39,803 nucleotides of DNA from the NCBI GenBank assembly GCA_023301705.1, contig JALZUE010000138.1, forward strand, positions 1-39,803. The letters run 5' to 3'. The notes beneath the pieces are model-generated. The model ran no database searches, was not told the DNA's origin, and saw only the letters and a program-made list of their open reading frames with translations. The DNA comes from Alteromonadaceae bacterium. GTDB lineage: Bacteria; Pseudomonadota; Gammaproteobacteria; Enterobacterales; Alteromonadaceae. Each line of letters begins with the position of its first letter. The first letter of the stretch is position 1. Position numbers and translations under genes: made by a program. Positions 602-31,754 of this stretch are shown here, piece by piece.

Positions 602-3196
<2,595 letters not shown>

Positions 3197-3229
3197 TCAA
3201 AGTTTTAATGTTTAGGCTGGCGTGCATAA

Positions 3230-3251
3230 TGATTTATTGTTCAATAAATCA
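3230..3251. repeat. 22-bp palindrome in the leuS leader
   Basis: TGATTTATTG and CAATAAATCA form a perfect 10-bp inverted repeat around a 2-nt centre, 43 bp upstream of the leuS start codon. With so short a centre it is more likely a protein-binding dyad than a good RNA hairpin. A TATAAC-like -10 for leuS lies just upstream on the minus strand (about 3257-3262), which would put the palindrome near the transcription start. No regulator is identified. Confidence 0.4.
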
Positions 3252-3475
3252 CAGCGTTATACCAATAGTGGAAAAATAATCGCACGATAATACCTTATCC
3301 TAACAAGCAACAAAAGATTAACCGTTAACATTTACTGTAAATAGCACAGATAAAAATGCCGAACGACATTGCCTTTTTTAGTTCGCTAAGAGTACACTTG
3401 AAGTGTGTTTGATCTTTTCGCAATTATTTTTACTGCTTTCAATACACATTCTACTTTTTCAAGAGAGCTTTTTTC

Positions 3476-5893
3476 ATGACCAAAACCCCTGTTTCATTAG
3501 CATTATCCGTAAACCACTTAAGCGCAAATTTATCTTCAACATTATTTGAAATTAACGAAAAAAATGAACAAGCACAGCAAGATTTTATTGGGCATGAACG
3601 TGCAAAAGAAGCGTTAGCGTTTGGTTTATCAATGAAGGCTAATGGCTTTAATGTTTTTGCAGTGGGTGAACATGGTACTGGCAGGCAAACATTAATTAAG
3701 CAAATGCTTAATGAAATGGCTACGCAAGAAGAAACACCTTATGAATGGTGTTATATCAATAACTTTGATGATAATCATGCCCCTTTTACTCTGCAGTTAA
3801 ACCAAGGTGAAGGTAAGCATTTACTTACACGCTTGAATACATTTATAGATGAGTTAATGGGCCTATTTCCTGAAATATTTGATAACCCAGGTTATCAACG
3901 TCAGAAGGCTTCAATTGATCGTGAATTTAATGCGCAATACGATCAAGCGATTAGTTTGGTAGAACAAACTGCTTTGAAGAAAAATATCATTTTATTTGTT
4001 GAAAATGATGAAGTATGTTTTTCGCCGTATATTGATGGTAAACCTGTTAGCGACAAAGAATTTGTTAATGCGTCTGAAGAGCAACGAGTGGCATATGAGC
4101 TAGGCTTGGTTGAGTTGGAAGAGTTATTGTCAGAGCAATTACTTGAACTGCCTGCATGGAAACGTATTTCATCTACTAAAATGCGCCAGCTTAAAAACGA
4201 AACGGCAGAGCAAAGTATTCGCCCATTAATGAAAGAGCTAGAGCACGAATTTAGCAATAATATTGGCGTATTAAAATACTTAAACCAAGTAAAAGAAAAC
4301 ATTGTTGATGCAGTATTAGAGTTATTAGTTGATGAATCAACCGATACTCCTCGTGATGATAAAAGTGCGCGTAAATTAATGGTTGAACGATTCTTACCTA
4401 ATTTACTGATTTCAAAAAAAGACAGTTTAGGCGCACCAGTTATTTATGAACAAAACCCAACATATCAAAACTTGTTCGGTTATGTTGATTTTGCAACATT
4501 TCAAGGAGGATCATACACCAGTTATCGACTTATTCGCCCTGGTGCATTACATAAAGCAAATGGTGGTTACCTATTATTAGACGCAGAGAAGTTACTGCAA
4601 CAGCCTATGGTGTGGGCACAGCTTAAGTTAGCGTTGAAAACTCAACAAATAACCATTGAAAACCCATATGCTGAGCTTAGCCAGTTAAGTGGACAAAGCT
4701 TACAACCAGAAAAAATACCATTAAAACTAAAAGTAGTATTACTTGGCGATCCTGAAATTTATTATTCATTGCAAGAATATGATCAAGAATTTACAGAGCT
4801 GTTTCGGGTATTAGCTGATTTTGACAGACACTTATCGAATGACCAAGAAAGTTTAATTGCTTACAGTAATCTAATTCGACAACGTGCAAAGAAATTGAAT
4901 TACCCAGAAATATCAGCGACAGCCATTGTAGAATTAATTTTATACGCCTTAAGGCGAGCAGAGCATCAACATAAAATTTCAGCGAATATTGTACAGGTTA
5001 ATGACTTACTCGATGAAGCACATTATTTATGGCAAAAAGATAATCATCTGATTAGTGATGGTGTCATTGAAAATAATTCTATACAAGCGGAACACATATT
5101 AGCTGCTTTGTCAGCGAAAGAGCGAAGAACAGGCCGATTAAGTGAAACCTGGTTAAGCGAAATTAATGAACAACAATTACTGATTAGTACACAAGGTAAG
5201 CAAGTAGGTAAAGTGAATGGCTTAACTGTGCTCGAAATAGGTGATAGCGTATTTGGTACACCTGCACGAATTACAGCGACGGTATATGCGGGTTCAAGCG
5301 GAGTAACTGATATTGAACGAGAAGCTGAATTAGGTAAGGCTATTCATTCGAAAGGGGTAATGTTGTTAACCGGTTATTTAGGGCACAAATATGGGCAAAG
5401 CTTTCCAGTAAGCATTTCAGCAAATATTGCTATTGAACAGTCGTATGGGTATATCGACGGTGATAGTGCATCAATGGCTGAATTATGCGCGCTTATTTCT
5501 GCCATCATTAACGTACCTATTGATCAAGGTATTGCGATAACAGGCTCTATTAACCAACATGGCGAAGTACAGTCAATTGGTGGTGTAAATGAAAAAATTG
5601 AAGGTTTTTACCGTTTATGTAAAGGCGAGGGGTTAACAGGGCAGCAAGGTGTTATTATTCCTCGTACTAATGTGGTGAACCTTATGTTATCGCATGATGT
5701 GATTGATGCTGTTGAAGCGGGTAATTTTACTATTTATGCCGTAGATGACATTGATCAAGCACTAGGATTGTTAATGGGGGCAGATGCTGGCGTGATGAAT
5801 AGTGTTGGTCGTTACCCAAGACGTTCAATTCATGGTTTAGTGTTAGAAAAGCTCTCTGTTTTTTCAGATATATTAAATGGCTCTGACGAATAA
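3476..5893 (+). CDS. Lon-family (S16) protease with degenerate AAA domain, LonC/YcbZ-like
   Basis: Cytosolic serine-lysine protease of family S16. The C-terminal proteolytic domain carries the dyad: Ser664 in DGDSAS and Lys707 in GGVNEKIEG, spaced 43 residues, the same spacing as Ser679/Lys722 in E. coli Lon. The N-terminal half is the AAA_32-type region of the YcbZ/LonC group, not the classical LonA architecture. Its P-loop is GEHGTGRQT, with Arg where Lys is expected, and the Walker-B-like strand is GGYLLLDAEKL. At 805 residues it is longer than E. coli YcbZ (about 586). The start ATG at 3476 has AAGAGAG upstream. It is a single gene, followed by a terminator hairpin. Whether it hydrolyses ATP cannot be told from sequence. 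Substrates are unknown. Confidence 0.88.
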   Translation: MTKTPVSLALSVNHLSANLSSTLFEINEKNEQAQQDFIGHERAKEALAFGLSMKANGFNVFAVGEHGTGRQTLIKQMLNEMATQEETPYEWCYINNFDDNHAPFTLQLNQGEGKHLLTRLNTFIDELMGLFPEIFDNPGYQRQKASIDREFNAQYDQAISLVEQTALKKNIILFVENDEVCFSPYIDGKPVSDKEFVNASEEQRVAYELGLVELEELLSEQLLELPAWKRISSTKMRQLKNETAEQSIRPLMKELEHEFSNNIGVLKYLNQVKENIVDAVLELLVDESTDTPRDDKSARKLMVERFLPNLLISKKDSLGAPVIYEQNPTYQNLFGYVDFATFQGGSYTSYRLIRPGALHKANGGYLLLDAEKLLQQPMVWAQLKLALKTQQITIENPYAELSQLSGQSLQPEKIPLKLKVVLLGDPEIYYSLQEYDQEFTELFRVLADFDRHLSNDQESLIAYSNLIRQRAKKLNYPEISATAIVELILYALRRAEHQHKISANIVQVNDLLDEAHYLWQKDNHLISDGVIENNSIQAEHILAALSAKERRTGRLSETWLSEINEQQLLISTQGKQVGKVNGLTVLEIGDSVFGTPARITATVYAGSSGVTDIEREAELGKAIHSKGVMLLTGYLGHKYGQSFPVSISANIAIEQSYGYIDGDSASMAELCALISAIINVPIDQGIAITGSINQHGEVQSIGGVNEKIEGFYRLCKGEGLTGQQGVIIPRTNVVNLMLSHDVIDAVEAGNFTIYAVDDIDQALGLLMGADAGVMNSVGRYPRRSIHGLVLEKLSVFSDILNGSDE

Positions 5894-24137: not shown

Positions 24138-24183
24138 ACTATATTAATATATTGATAAAATAGATAAATCCTGGAGGATGCCC

Positions 24184-24567
24184 TTGGATACAAACATGAA
24201 AGTACTTGTTGTAGACGATTTTTCAACAATGAGACGTATAATCAAGAATTTACTACGTGACTTAGGATTTACTAATATCCAAGAAGCTGATGATGGAAGT
24301 ACTGCATTGCCGATGTTGCAAGGTGGTGATTTTGAATTTGTAGTTACTGACTGGAATATGCCTGGTATGCAAGGTATAGACTTACTAAAAGCTATTCGCG
24401 CTGATGATAGTTTAAAGCATTTACCCGTTTTAATGGTAACCGCTGAAGCTAAGAAAGAACAAATTGTAATGGCTGCTCAGGCTGGCGTTAATGGTTATAT
24501 TGTTAAGCCTTTTACTGCAGGTACATTAAAAGCAAAGCTTGATAAAATATTTGAGCGTTTAGCTTAG
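24184..24567 (+). CDS. cheY: Chemotaxis response regulator CheY
   Basis: Single-domain receiver that, when phosphorylated by CheA, binds FliM and reverses the motor. The acidic pocket is Asp11/Asp12 (VVDDFS), phospho-acceptor Asp56 ([11 protein letters not shown]) and the late Lys in YIVKPF. The Thr/Ala switch (VTAEAKKEQ) is also clear. Start choice: ATG 24178 directly abuts the GGAGG ribosome binding site (24173-24177), leaving no spacing. TTG 24184 has a 6-nt spacer and gives [10 protein letters not shown], similar in form to Vibrio/Shewanella CheY N-termini as I recall them. ATG 24196 is the other option. The identity is certain; the start is not. Confidence 0.95.
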
Positions 24568-24606: not shown

Positions 24607-25347
24607 ATGAGTGTTGATACAGCCCATGTTTCATTAGAACAAGCAAAACAGCTAGTTGAATATTTAGAGAATGATCAACAAGAAAAAGCTGACGAATTAG
24701 TTGCTGAACTACAAAACCCCAAAAATACTGAGTTATTTGCAGAAATAGGTAAGTTAACTCGTCAATTACATGACTCAATGAATAACTTTAACCTTGATTC
24801 TCGTATTGAAGGAATTGCTAATGCTGATATTCCTGACGCGAAAGAACGTTTAAATTATGTTATTGAACGCACTGAAAATGCAGCCAACAAAACGATGGAC
24901 GCAGTAGAGTCTATCTTTCCAAGTCTGGATAACATTCAAGCGAAAATTGATAAAGTAATGCCTCAGTGGAAGTTGTTAATGAGCAATGAAATTGACTTTC
25001 CTGGTTTTAAGGAATTGTGTCATGAAATTGATGAGCTTTTAACTACAACTAAAACAGAAAGTACTCAAATGCATCGTTTAATGACTGATGTGTTGATGGC
25101 ACAAGACTTCCAAGATTTGACAGGTCAAGTGATTAGAAAAGTTATTGATCTTGTTATTGAGGTTGAAGACAGCTTAATACATATGTTGACTGTTTTTGGA
25201 TTAAATCAAACCAGTGATAATGACAAAAATTACGCCCCTAAGGTAGGTGAAAACTTAGTTGAAGGGCCAATTATTGATACAGAGCGAGATGATGTTGTTG
25301 CAGATCAAGACGATGTTGACGATTTGCTTTCAAGCTTAGGTTTTTAA
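24607..25347 (+). CDS. cheZ: Chemotaxis protein CheZ, CheY-P phosphatase
   Basis: Cytosolic phosphatase that dephosphorylates CheY-P. The 246-residue protein is mostly long helices forming a four-helix bundle as a dimer. The catalytic segment MAQDFQDLTGQ is at residues 164-174; Asp170 and Gln174 correspond to Asp143/Gln147 of E. coli. The last residues, DDVDDLLSSLGF, form the CheY-binding tail after an acidic, disordered linker. It lies between cheY and cheA. The tail is worth comparing with the repeated peptides in the neighbouring CheA. Confidence 0.96.
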   Translation: MSVDTAHVSLEQAKQLVEYLENDQQEKADELVAELQNPKNTELFAEIGKLTRQLHDSMNNFNLDSRIEGIANADIPDAKERLNYVIERTENAANKTMDAVESIFPSLDNIQAKIDKVMPQWKLLMSNEIDFPGFKELCHEIDELLTTTKTESTQMHRLMTDVLMAQDFQDLTGQVIRKVIDLVIEVEDSLIHMLTVFGLNQTSDNDKNYAPKVGENLVEGPIIDTERDDVVADQDDVDDLLSSLGF

Positions 25348-25363
25348 TAAAGGATTACAGTGT

Positions 25364-27469
25364 ATGTCTTACGAAGCAGATGAAGAAATTCTTCAGGATT
25401 TTTTAATTGAAGCGGGTGAAATTTTAGAAACGTTATCAGAGCAACTTGTTGAGCTTGAAAATAATCCTGATGATTCAGATTTATTGAATGCTATCTTCCG
25501 TGGTTTTCATACCGTGAAAGGTGGTGCAGGTTTTCTTTCATTAAATAACTTAGTTGATGTGTGTCACGGAGCAGAAAATATCTTTGATATTTTACGTACC
25601 AATCAACGTTCAGTAAATGCTGAATTAATGGATGTGATATTACAAGCACTTGATACTATTAATGAAATGTTTGCTTTAGTACAGAATCGTGAAGAAACTG
25701 AACCTGCTGCCCCTGCTTTATTACAAGAGCTACATCGTCTAAGCATACCAGAATCACAAGAAGAACAGGCGCCTACACAGGAGTCTAAACCTACTGCCGT
25801 CGAAGTAACTGATAGTTCAGATGAAATGTCTGAAAATGATTTTGATGCTTTATTGGATGAGTTACATGGTAGTAAAACACCTGAAACCAATCCTACTCCA
25901 ACACCTGCTGCTGCAAGCAATTCACATGATATTTCGGATGATGAGTTTGAATCATTGTTGGATGAACTTCACGGACAAGGTGCTTTTTCTAACGATGTTA
26001 GTCAACCCAAAGTTGAAACACCAGTGTTTAGCACATCTGATGAAATGAATGATGCTGAATTTGAAGCTCTACTTGATGAAATTCATGGAACAGGAAAGTC
26101 ACCTGTTGCTGCTGTACCTGCACCTGCAGTTACATCTGCACCTGCACCTGCAGTTAATACACCTAAAGAAAAACCAATAACACCACCAAAGGCGGTTAAT
26201 AAGCCAGCTGTTAAGGCTAGTCCTGCTCCTAAAGCTAAGCCTGCGGGTAAAGCTGGAGGTAATAAACCTGCTGCTCCTCAAGCAGAAACAACAGTACGAG
26301 TAGATACTGCTCGTCTTGATCAAATTATGAATATGGTGGGTGAATTAGTACTCGTACGTAACCGTTTGACCAGTCTTGGAGCGACAAAAGATGATGAAAA
26401 TCTTACTAAAGCAGTTTCAAACCTTGATGCTGTAACTACAGATCTTCAGGGTGCGGTTATGAAAACGCGTATGCAACCCATTAAGAAAGTGTTTGGCCGC
26501 TTTCCGCGTGTTGTTAGAGATTTAGCGCGAAGTTTAAATAAAGAAATTAAGTTAATACTTGAAGGTGAAGAGACTGATTTAGATAAAAACCTAGTTGAAG
26601 CTTTAGCGGATCCATTGGTGCATTTAGTTAGAAACTCAGTTGACCACGGTATTGAAGAGCCTGATAAACGTGAAAGTCAAGGTAAACCCCGTGAAGGTAA
26701 AGTTATTTTATCTGCTTCGCAAGAAGGTGATCATATTTTGTTAACCATTACAGATGATGGTGCAGGTATGAATGCTGATAAGCTAAAAGAAATAGCGATT
26801 GAACGCGGCGTGTTAGATGACGAATCAGCTGCAAGAATGACAGATAAAGAAGCATATAGTTTAATATTTGCTCCTGGTTTTTCAACGAAAACTGAGATAT
26901 CAGAAGTGTCTGGCCGTGGTGTTGGGATGGATGTTGTAAAAACTAAAATCACTCAATTAAATGGTACAGTTAATATAGACTCTGAGCTAGGCAAGGGCAC
27001 TGTTTTAGAAATAAAAGTACCACTAACTTTAGCTATTTTACCAACACTTATGGTTGTTGTTGGTAAACAAAGCTTTGCATTACCGTTGGCTGGTGTGAAT
27101 GAAATTTTCCATTTAGATTTAACAAAAACCAATACAGTTGATGGCCAATTAACAATCGTTGTTAGAGACAAAGCTATTCCACTATTCTTTTTAGATGAAT
27201 GGTTAGTAAGAGGCTACAAAGAAAAACCAAGAGATAAAGGCCACGTTGTTATTGTGCAATTAGGTTCTCAGCAAGTTGCATTTGTTGTTGATAGTTTAGT
27301 TGGACAAGAAGAAGTAGTTATTAAGCCGCTTGATAGTTTATTGCAAGGTACTCCTGGAATGGCAGGAGCAACAATTACAAGTGATGGTGGTATAGCATTG
27401 ATTTTAGATGTTGCTAATATGTTAAAATATTACTCAAAAAAAACAGCATATAACAAAAAAATAAGATAA
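25364..27469 (+). CDS. cheA: Chemotaxis histidine kinase CheA
   Basis: Central kinase of the chemosensory array; passes phosphate from its P1 histidine to CheY and CheB. The 701-residue protein has P1 (HPt) with His49 in FHTVKGGAGFL. An unusual linker of about 185 residues (125-310) follows, then P3 dimerisation (TVRVDTARLDQIMNMVGELVL), the P4 ATPase (LVRNSVDHGIEEPD N box, ITDDGAGMN, SGRGVGMDVVKT) and the CheW-like P5. I see no folded CheY-binding P2 domain. The linker holds three copies of an 18-residue peptide (152-169, 187-204, 225-242) and a Pro/Ala/Lys-rich segment (about 245-305). Confidence 0.96.
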   Translation: MSYEADEEILQDFLIEAGEILETLSEQLVELENNPDDSDLLNAIFRGFHTVKGGAGFLSLNNLVDVCHGAENIFDILRTNQRSVNAELMDVILQALDTINEMFALVQNREETEPAAPALLQELHRLSIPESQEEQAPTQESKPTAVEVTDSSDEMSENDFDALLDELHGSKTPETNPTPTPAAASNSHDISDDEFESLLDELHGQGAFSNDVSQPKVETPVFSTSDEMNDAEFEALLDEIHGTGKSPVAAVPAPAVTSAPAPAVNTPKEKPITPPKAVNKPAVKASPAPKAKPAGKAGGNKPAAPQAETTVRVDTARLDQIMNMVGELVLVRNRLTSLGATKDDENLTKAVSNLDAVTTDLQGAVMKTRMQPIKKVFGRFPRVVRDLARSLNKEIKLILEGEETDLDKNLVEALADPLVHLVRNSVDHGIEEPDKRESQGKPREGKVILSASQEGDHILLTITDDGAGMNADKLKEIAIERGVLDDESAARMTDKEAYSLIFAPGFSTKTEISEVSGRGVGMDVVKTKITQLNGTVNIDSELGKGTVLEIKVPLTLAILPTLMVVVGKQSFALPLAGVNEIFHLDLTKTNTVDGQLTIVVRDKAIPLFFLDEWLVRGYKEKPRDKGHVVIVQLGSQQVAFVVDSLVGQEEVVIKPLDSLLQGTPGMAGATITSDGGIALILDVANMLKYYSKKTAYNKKIR
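25817..26089 (+). repeat. Three-copy 18-residue peptide repeat inside CheA
   Basis: CheA residues 152-169 (SDEMSENDFDALLDELHG), 187-204 (SHDISDDEFESLLDELHG) and 225-242 (SDEMNDAEFEALLDEIHG) share the pattern [MI]-[SN]-x-x-[DE]-F-[DE]-[AS]-L-L-D-E-[LI]-H-G. Copies are separated by low-complexity spacers of about 17-20 residues. The repeat lies where P2 would be. Confidence 0.9.
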
Positions 27470-30267: not shown

Positions 30268-31047
30268 GTGGTAATTTGGACAATAGCGAATCAAAAAGGT
30301 GGTGTTGGTAAAACCACGTCAACTATCTGCTTGGGTGGTTTGTTAGCTGATCAAGGTCATCGTGTACTGTTAATAGACACAGACCCTCATGCTTCTCTTA
30401 GTTACTATTTTGGTATTGAATCTGAAGATTTAGAATTGAGTGTATACGACTTATTTATACAAACAGCCACGCGAGAACAAATTTTACAAAGCTTATGCCC
30501 AACTAAATACAAAAATATTGATATTTTACCAGCTACCATGGGGCTCGCAACATTAGATCGTGCATTAGGAAATAAGGGTGGTATGGGCTTAGTGCTGAAA
30601 AAAGCACTTGCACGATTAGAAGACGAATATGACTATGTGCTCATTGATTGCCCTCCTATTTTAGGTGTGTTGATGGTGAATGCCTTAGCGGCATCTGAGC
30701 GTATTATTATTCCAGTTCAAACTGAATTTTTAGCACTTAAAGGGCTAGATAGAATGATACATACTATGGAAATGATGCAGTCAGAACAAGAAGAATTGTT
30801 TGATTATATTATTATTCCAACAATGTTTGATAAACGTACTAAAGCGTCTTTATTGGCTTATCATCAAATGACAGAATCATACCCTAATAGAGTATGGAAA
30901 GGCGTTATTCCAATAGACACGAATTTTAGAAACTCAAGTAATGCAAAAAAAACCCCATCAGATTACTCAGCGAAGTCTAGGGGTGTTATCGCTTATCAGA
31001 ACTTATTATTATCGTTAGCAGAACAACAAGAAGAGACAGCTAAATGA
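30268..31047 (+). CDS. parC: ParA-like ATPase ParC, chemosensory array positioning
   Basis: ParA-family ATPase with a deviant Walker A at the N-terminus (NQKGGVGKTTST), LLIDTDPHASLSYYFG, and the Walker B-like VLIDCPPILGVL. The 259-residue protein starts at GTG 30268 behind ATAGGG. In Vibrio, ParC forms a polar gradient and recruits the chemotaxis array so that each daughter inherits one. The assignment rests on context: it lies between the stator genes and a CheW-like gene it overlaps by 4 nt, in a che operon. It is distinct from FlhG in the same block and from a chromosome-partition ParA, which would be next to parB. Confidence 0.85.
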   Translation: MVIWTIANQKGGVGKTTSTICLGGLLADQGHRVLLIDTDPHASLSYYFGIESEDLELSVYDLFIQTATREQILQSLCPTKYKNIDILPATMGLATLDRALGNKGGMGLVLKKALARLEDEYDYVLIDCPPILGVLMVNALAASERIIIPVQTEFLALKGLDRMIHTMEMMQSEQEELFDYIIIPTMFDKRTKASLLAYHQMTESYPNRVWKGVIPIDTNFRNSSNAKKTPSDYSAKSRGVIAYQNLLLSLAEQQEETAK

Positions 31048-31754
31048 CAAAAAACTTAGCCGCAAGTAACAAAGTAATGAAAAGTTATCTGTCAGAACTT
31101 ATGACAGATGAAGATATTGCGGAAGATAATAGTAAGCTCGAAAAACTATTAAGTAATGTAGATGAAATAAAAAATGAAATATCTACAGATAAATCACAGC
31201 AAAAAGCAGAAATTTCAGCTAAAGTTATTAAAGAAGAAAATATTCCTATTGTAGATGCTGGGCAAATAGAAGAGCAAGTATCAATAGAAGAAGCTGAAGA
31301 AGAAACTAAAGCAAGCCCTCATTTTTCAAAAGAAAGTTTTCAAGCGATGTTTTTTAAAGTAGCTGGGCTAGTTGTTGCGGTTCCATTAGTTGAGTTAGGT
31401 GGTATCCATAATTTAACAGAAATACATCATTTAATGGGAAAACCTGATTGGTTTAAAGGGGTAATGTTAAACCGAGAAGATAAAGTTAATGTTGTTGATA
31501 CAGCTTTGTGGGTAATGCGAGAGCGGTGTAATGATGAATTGATGGCATCATTAAATTATGAATACATTATTATGTTAAGTGATAGTTCATGGGGTTTAGC
31601 AGCTGAAAGCATTGTTGATACAGTAACACTAACAGAAAATGATGTTAAATGGGTTGAGTCATCAGATAGACCTTGGTTAGCTGGCTTGGTTAAAGACAGA
31701 ATGTGTGCTTTACTGAATGTAGAGTCTTTGATTAGTTTATTGAATAAAGGCTGA
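31044..31754 (+). CDS. parP: CheW-like array-anchoring protein ParP
   Basis: The 236-residue protein has an acidic/charged N-terminal half (about residues 1-95) and a C-terminal CheW-like domain (from FFKVAGLVVAVPLVELGGI, with IMLSDSSWGLAAESIVDTVTL). ParP of Vibrio links ParC to the array through its C-terminal AIF domain, which binds CheA and receptors. The overlap with parC (ATGA) indicates coupled translation. The domain lacks the more regular CheW features seen in the next gene, so it is called ParP rather than a second CheW. Name by context and architecture. Confidence 0.82.
   Translation: MTKNLAASNKVMKSYLSELMTDEDIAEDNSKLEKLLSNVDEIKNEISTDKSQQKAEISAKVIKEENIPIVDAGQIEEQVSIEEAEEETKASPHFSKESFQAMFFKVAGLVVAVPLVELGGIHNLTEIHHLMGKPDWFKGVMLNREDKVNVVDTALWVMRERCNDELMASLNYEYIIMLSDSSWGLAAESIVDTVTLTENDVKWVESSDRPWLAGLVKDRMCALLNVESLISLLNKG

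Follow-up and report, generated by a model that had tools for sequence, protein, structure and literature searches.

The CheA kinase encoded in the window, which is the whole 39,803-nucleotide stretch of Alteromonadaceae DNA analysed here, carries three copies of a short, predicted helical peptide in the linker between its P1 and P3 domains, where a folded P2 domain is absent. These repeats are conserved among related CheA, resemble the CheY-binding peptides of FliM and CheZ beyond permuted controls, and are retained in genomes that have neither ParC nor ParP. They probably constitute a tethered array of FliM/CheZ-like helices that docks CheY in place of P2.

The repeat array and the missing P2 domain

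The operon of the window reads, from its open reading frames, flhA, flhF, flhG, fliA, cheY, cheZ, cheA, cheB, motA/B-like, parC, parP, and cheW (Table 1). The flagellar genes were named by sequence inspection, and cheY, cheZ, cheA, and the CheW-like domain of ParP by Pfam. The CheA protein contains an Hpt domain (residues 8-99), H-kinase_dim (309-368), HATPase_c (415-555), and CheW (562-688), that is, the P1-P3-P4-P5 core domains of an F6-class or CheZ-linked CheA. The neighbourhood is also of this kind, with cheY-cheZ-cheA-cheB preceded by flhA/flhF/flhG/fliA, F6 being a label of convenience in this text for CheZ-linked CheA that closely resemble that of the window.

Table 1. Features of the chemotaxis operon in window coordinates.
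Feature	Position	Strand	Description and basis
cheA	25364..27469	+	ORF, 701 aa; domains P1, P3, P4, P5; three repeats in the disordered P1-P3 linker
P1-P3 linker, aa 128-308, without P2 domain	25745..26287	+	Pfam, AlphaFold, spacer conservation
Repeat 1 SDEMSENDFDALLDELHG, aa 152-169, helix 157-167	25817..25870	+	DNA repeat, profile, AlphaFold, conservation
Repeat 2 SHDISDDEFESLLDELHG, aa 187-204, helix 192-202	25922..25975	+	DNA repeat, profile, AlphaFold, conservation
Repeat 3 SDEMNDAEFEALLDEIHG, aa 225-242, helix 230-241	26036..26089	+	DNA repeat, profile, AlphaFold, conservation
cheY, presumed ligand of the repeats	24178..24567	+	Response_reg (Pfam); alpha4-beta5-alpha5 face intact
cheZ C-terminal CheY-binding tail ADQDDVDDLLSSLGF, same pattern as the repeats	25300..25347	+	CheZ (Pfam); best segment for the repeat profile
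parC, ParA-like ATPase	30268..31047	+	ORF; operon-position orthologues ~200-275 bits
parP, CheW-like AIF domain, rival ligand	31044..31754	+	ORF; CheW domain 100-231 (Pfam); ParP profile 277 bits

The original prediction of a three-copy peptide array in this linker is borne out by both the DNA register and the profile scores. A 53-nt unit recurs in register at 25817, 25922, and 26036, at spacings of 105 and 114 nt, and its three copies share a DNA identity of 72-74%. On a profile built from the repeats of 80 relatives, window copies included, the copies reach 35, 52, and 41 bits, while the maximum in 300 shuffled CheA is -8. The motif is [DE]-[DE]-[IM]-[TSN]-x-x-[ED]-F-[ED]-x-L-L-D-[EQ]-[LI]-H-G, and the consensus may also be read as [DE][DE]I[TS]DDEFExLLD[EQ]LHGxG. 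As a predicted helix, each unit has a Ser/Thr-type N-cap (S in repeats 1 and 2, N in repeat 3) and a Gly end, with F, L, L, and L aligned along one face. The repeat peptide has no match in the PDB, and no relevant paper was found for a "DFD motif" in connection with CheA.

The absence of a folded P2 domain, also predicted, holds by two approaches. No Pfam P2 or CheY-binding domain matches the window CheA at E<=1, and an AlphaFold model (40 sequences) contains no P2 fold between P1 and P3, so that the five-domain organization with a folded P2 in this place does not apply. The model places helices in the linker only at the three repeats (157-167, 192-202, and 230-241), the rest being mostly below pLDDT 50. 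These helices are moderately confident, with 10-residue block means of about 43-73 around them. The P2 or CheY-binding domain (PF07194, PF09078) has the same location between P1 and P3 and the same proposed task, the holding of CheY near P1, but is a folded domain of about 70 residues, instead of which the window CheA has three separate short helices.

Depictions of CheA from Vibrio and Pseudomonas usually include a P2 domain, and its presence is taken for granted in a review and in a domain-deletion study (PMC7534058, PMC11978298). Berry et al. reported in 2023 that more than half of CheA are without P2 and that their P1-P3 stretch is unstructured (PMC10782961). That survey names no replacement for the domain, whereas the window CheA has the repeats; the words "motif" and "FliM" are absent from its main text. 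The repeats could nevertheless have been described elsewhere in the literature, for instance in the paper that defines the LID region.

Conservation and distribution of the repeats

Retrieval with the whole CheA protein as query yielded 80 relatives. By a loose pattern, three copies are present in 73 of the resulting 81 CheA (window included), four in 2, and two in 6; by eye, some of the two-copy proteins have a diverged third copy, and one relative (L062) has four. In a 40-sequence alignment, conservation amounts to 80-84% in the repeats, 31-43% in the spacers, and 84-88% in the core domains, and the invariant columns of the linker fall inside the repeats. In the CheA of Colwellia, Shewanella, Pseudoalteromonas, Aeromonas, Aliivibrio, and Photobacterium, the repeats, usually in three copies, are the only conserved elements of the linker. 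Copies at the same position are 73-80% similar between species and copies at different positions 71%, a slight difference that fits an old triplication.

The copy number had been proposed for examination across Colwelliaceae. The repeats are indeed present there, but they are not limited to this family and are spread through Gammaproteobacteria. The CheA dimerisation domain was detected in 121 of 184 gammaproteobacterial genomes and the repeat motif in 68, the genome and locus samples being partly selected by similarity to the window CheA. Among the motif matches listed, nearly all fall, as judged by eye, in CheA-sized frames just upstream of a P3 match; one of them (G067:C85) lies in a 257-aa frame with no listed P3 adjoining. 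At 60 class-wide CheA loci, with a score threshold of 14 and a shuffle maximum of -8, 56 of the 58 CheA that closely resemble the window protein have between one and four copies, and the remaining two (L121, L122) have one degenerate copy each, ETITEEEFEQLLDTLNA. Within a 299-genome sample of the phylum, only two marginal motif matches lie outside Gammaproteobacteria.

No repeats occur in the 33 CheA frames of the second type, which is mostly F7-like, and in most of these a conserved domain some 90 residues long occupies the place of P2. This domain has no Pfam P2 match, no PDB match, and no significant hhalign result, and its identity as P2 rests on the literature.

It is very improbable that the repeats are instead a generic helical or oligomerisation motif akin to SHOCT (PF09851), with no role in CheY docking. 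PF09851 does match 44 of 54 class-wide CheA at E<=0.1, with a best value of 6e-8, through a common IT-x-x-EF stretch. However, the match of the one member shown covers profile positions 11-27 of 28 and reaches 22.1 bits against a curated cutoff of 27, being neither full-length nor above the cutoff, and the window CheA has no match at E<=1. The SHOCT consensus moreover spaces its paired leucines differently from the repeats, which counts against such a relationship. The partial matches through IT-x-x-EF are a likely source of misleading annotation.

Likeness to FliM and CheZ and the proposed docking of CheY

A narrow motif profile matches CheA alone in the window's own genome, so that the similarity to FliM and CheZ emerges only with a smoothed profile. 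The latter was scored on 4,428 frames from all retrieved loci, among which FliM N-termini from 29 loci were found by PF02154. The median background fraction is 0.7% for FliM N-termini and 0.2% for CheZ C-termini. In 400 column permutations, the FliM value was reached 4 times, the CheZ value 8 times, and both jointly never. Taken one at a time, FliM and CheZ thus lend a CheY dock modest permutation support, a point against it. In the window genome, the best segments are LSQDEIDALLHGADE in FliM and ADQDDVDDLLSSLGF, the extreme tail of CheZ. The predicted resemblance of the repeats to the FliM N-terminus and the CheZ tail therefore stands in an unbiased ranking of frames, and the repeats carry the FliM/CheZ-type pattern x-x-x-[DEQ]-[FIV]-[DE]-x-L-L with an S/T-type N-cap.

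The FliM N-terminal peptide (LSQDEIDALLHG in the window genome) is likewise a short N-capped amphipathic helix with [IF]-D/E-x-L-L and matches the repeats over the first two turns. It differs in that it binds CheY-P, occurs as a single copy at the N-terminus of a motor switch protein, is shorter by one helical turn, has I where the repeats have F, and is without the His-Gly end. The CheZ C-terminal peptide shares length and the pattern D-x-x-V-D-D-L-L-x-x-L-G with the repeats, and the match to DQDDVDDLLSSLGF extends along the whole length. It differs as a single copy at the free C-terminus of a phosphatase, which ends in GF and not in HG. A further CheZ-like CheY-binding tail, QAESKSFNQDEVDALLSELGL, closes a 325-aa frame upstream of cheA at another locus (L171, 1171-2146, +); this protein was missed by the CheZ query and is perhaps a divergent CheZ.

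In E. coli, P2 uses the same face of CheY as FliM and CheZ. These two ligands share the alpha4-beta5-alpha5 face, where CheY3 of V. cholerae binds FliM (PMC3774744). In the 136 CheY encoded beside these cheA genes, I95, Y106, K109, and K119 are invariant and K122 is present in 132.

In the CheY-docking array that we favour, CheY would be recruited by short amphipathic helices distributed along the disordered P1-P3 linker, and the same recruitment is proposed for F6/CheZ-linked gammaproteobacterial CheA in general. The repeat helices would lie on the alpha4-beta5-alpha5 face, which also receives FliM and CheZ, and docking would raise the concentration of CheY near the P1 phosphohistidine through fast, weak, and multivalent contacts, with CheY exchanging quickly. 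The presence of several copies may in addition alter the kinetics of phosphotransfer, as originally suggested. CheY-P is the form that FliM prefers, whereas a kinase-borne dock would be expected to take unphosphorylated CheY. The affinity of the repeats must consequently differ from that of FliM, and a shift in phospho-preference may come from the additional turn and the His-Gly end; alternatively, the array may also retain CheY-P.

As regards the whole CheA lineage, we lean towards a replacement of the folded dock by multivalent motor- and phosphatase-like helices, such that kinase, motor, and phosphatase would compete for CheY via one shared motif. Ortega et al. (2020, PMC7184735) reported that the CheY residues that changed when F7 systems recruited the F6 CheY lie chiefly where CheY contacts CheA, with three in positions that face P2; this fits a different kind of dock in F6. 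Should the array be the dock, it would supply the P2 substitute for many CheA so far described only by the lack of that domain, dock number would become tunable, and the changes in CheY upon its takeover by F7 (PMC7184735) would acquire a physical reason.

ParC, ParP, and the LID region

The original prediction also named a rival, in which the repeats would be the LID region, a ParP-binding site that holds CheA at the pole, CheY being taken by P1 alone. That parC and parP share an operon with cheA is confirmed by the reading frames, and ParC and ParP are encoded at most related loci as well. The published LID lies between P2 and P3, just ahead of P3, and is said to occur only with ParC/ParP (PMC7534058, PMC5706961). 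Because the repeats are the sole conserved part of the linker in ParP-bearing relatives, the LID, if conserved, would probably overlap them.

Six genomes argue otherwise, since they encode neither ParC nor ParP and their CheA still carries one to four copies: three in G172, two in G137, four in G001, two in G008, one in G020, and two in G024. At least one His/Tyr-Gly end is present in five of the six. Some ParP-less genomes are 91-96% complete, so that a missing gene may be missing sequence, while G172, G020, and G024 are 100% complete. In two further genomes (G095, G139), ParC is present, no ParP lies between ParC and CheW, and CheA has two copies. In these counts, ParP scores 65-277 bits on the ParP profile, CheW about 27-42, and a few divergent cases 47-54; ParC in the operon position scores 200-275 bits and other ParA-type proteins below 150. 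The genomes of loci L133, L159, L168, and L169 were left out of the ParP-less count on account of divergent ParP-like frames.

The repeats therefore lack the restriction to ParC/ParP by which the LID is described, and the nearest relatives of their profile are the FliM and CheZ peptides. The Vibrio CheA LID is similarly placed before P3 in species with ParC/ParP, but it is said to follow a P2; the two are set apart here by the published description of the LID. As six genomes keep the core without ParC and ParP, the comparison of sequences indicates that ParP binding cannot be the general purpose of the FliM-like core. An identity of the repeats with the LID alone is thus unlikely, and as a general purpose the ParP reading is weakened; an additional role is possible, most species having ParP.

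Such a role would be exerted if the repeats bound both CheY and ParP, or if single copies were specialised, the ligands competing for or dividing the sites. Both candidate ligands are usually present, and the greater similarity of same-position copies between species leaves room for specialisation. No signature separating the copies of ParP-bearing from those of ParP-less genomes was seen, however, and the copy number is only slightly lower without ParP; shared use appears rather doubtful, and docking of CheY remains the preferred reading.

In G172 (locus L116), which has no ParC or ParP, CheA contains three near-identical units, GEITDDEFEALLNQRD, truncated so that the FliM-like core is kept and the His-Gly end is missing. 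Between parC and cheW, L133, L159, and L168 encode highly diverged ParP-like proteins that are missed by the ParP profile or score at the level of CheW. A 327-aa frame adjoining parC at L169 (6796-7777, +) combines a ParP-like N-terminus, GALDDYLDALLSEAPP, with a CheW-like domain. The CheA frame of L171 (G134, 2137-4164) has one repeat and, in addition, a stretch, AVADYIDDMLAGE, similar to the conserved ParP N-terminus (ALxxYLDxLLxE).
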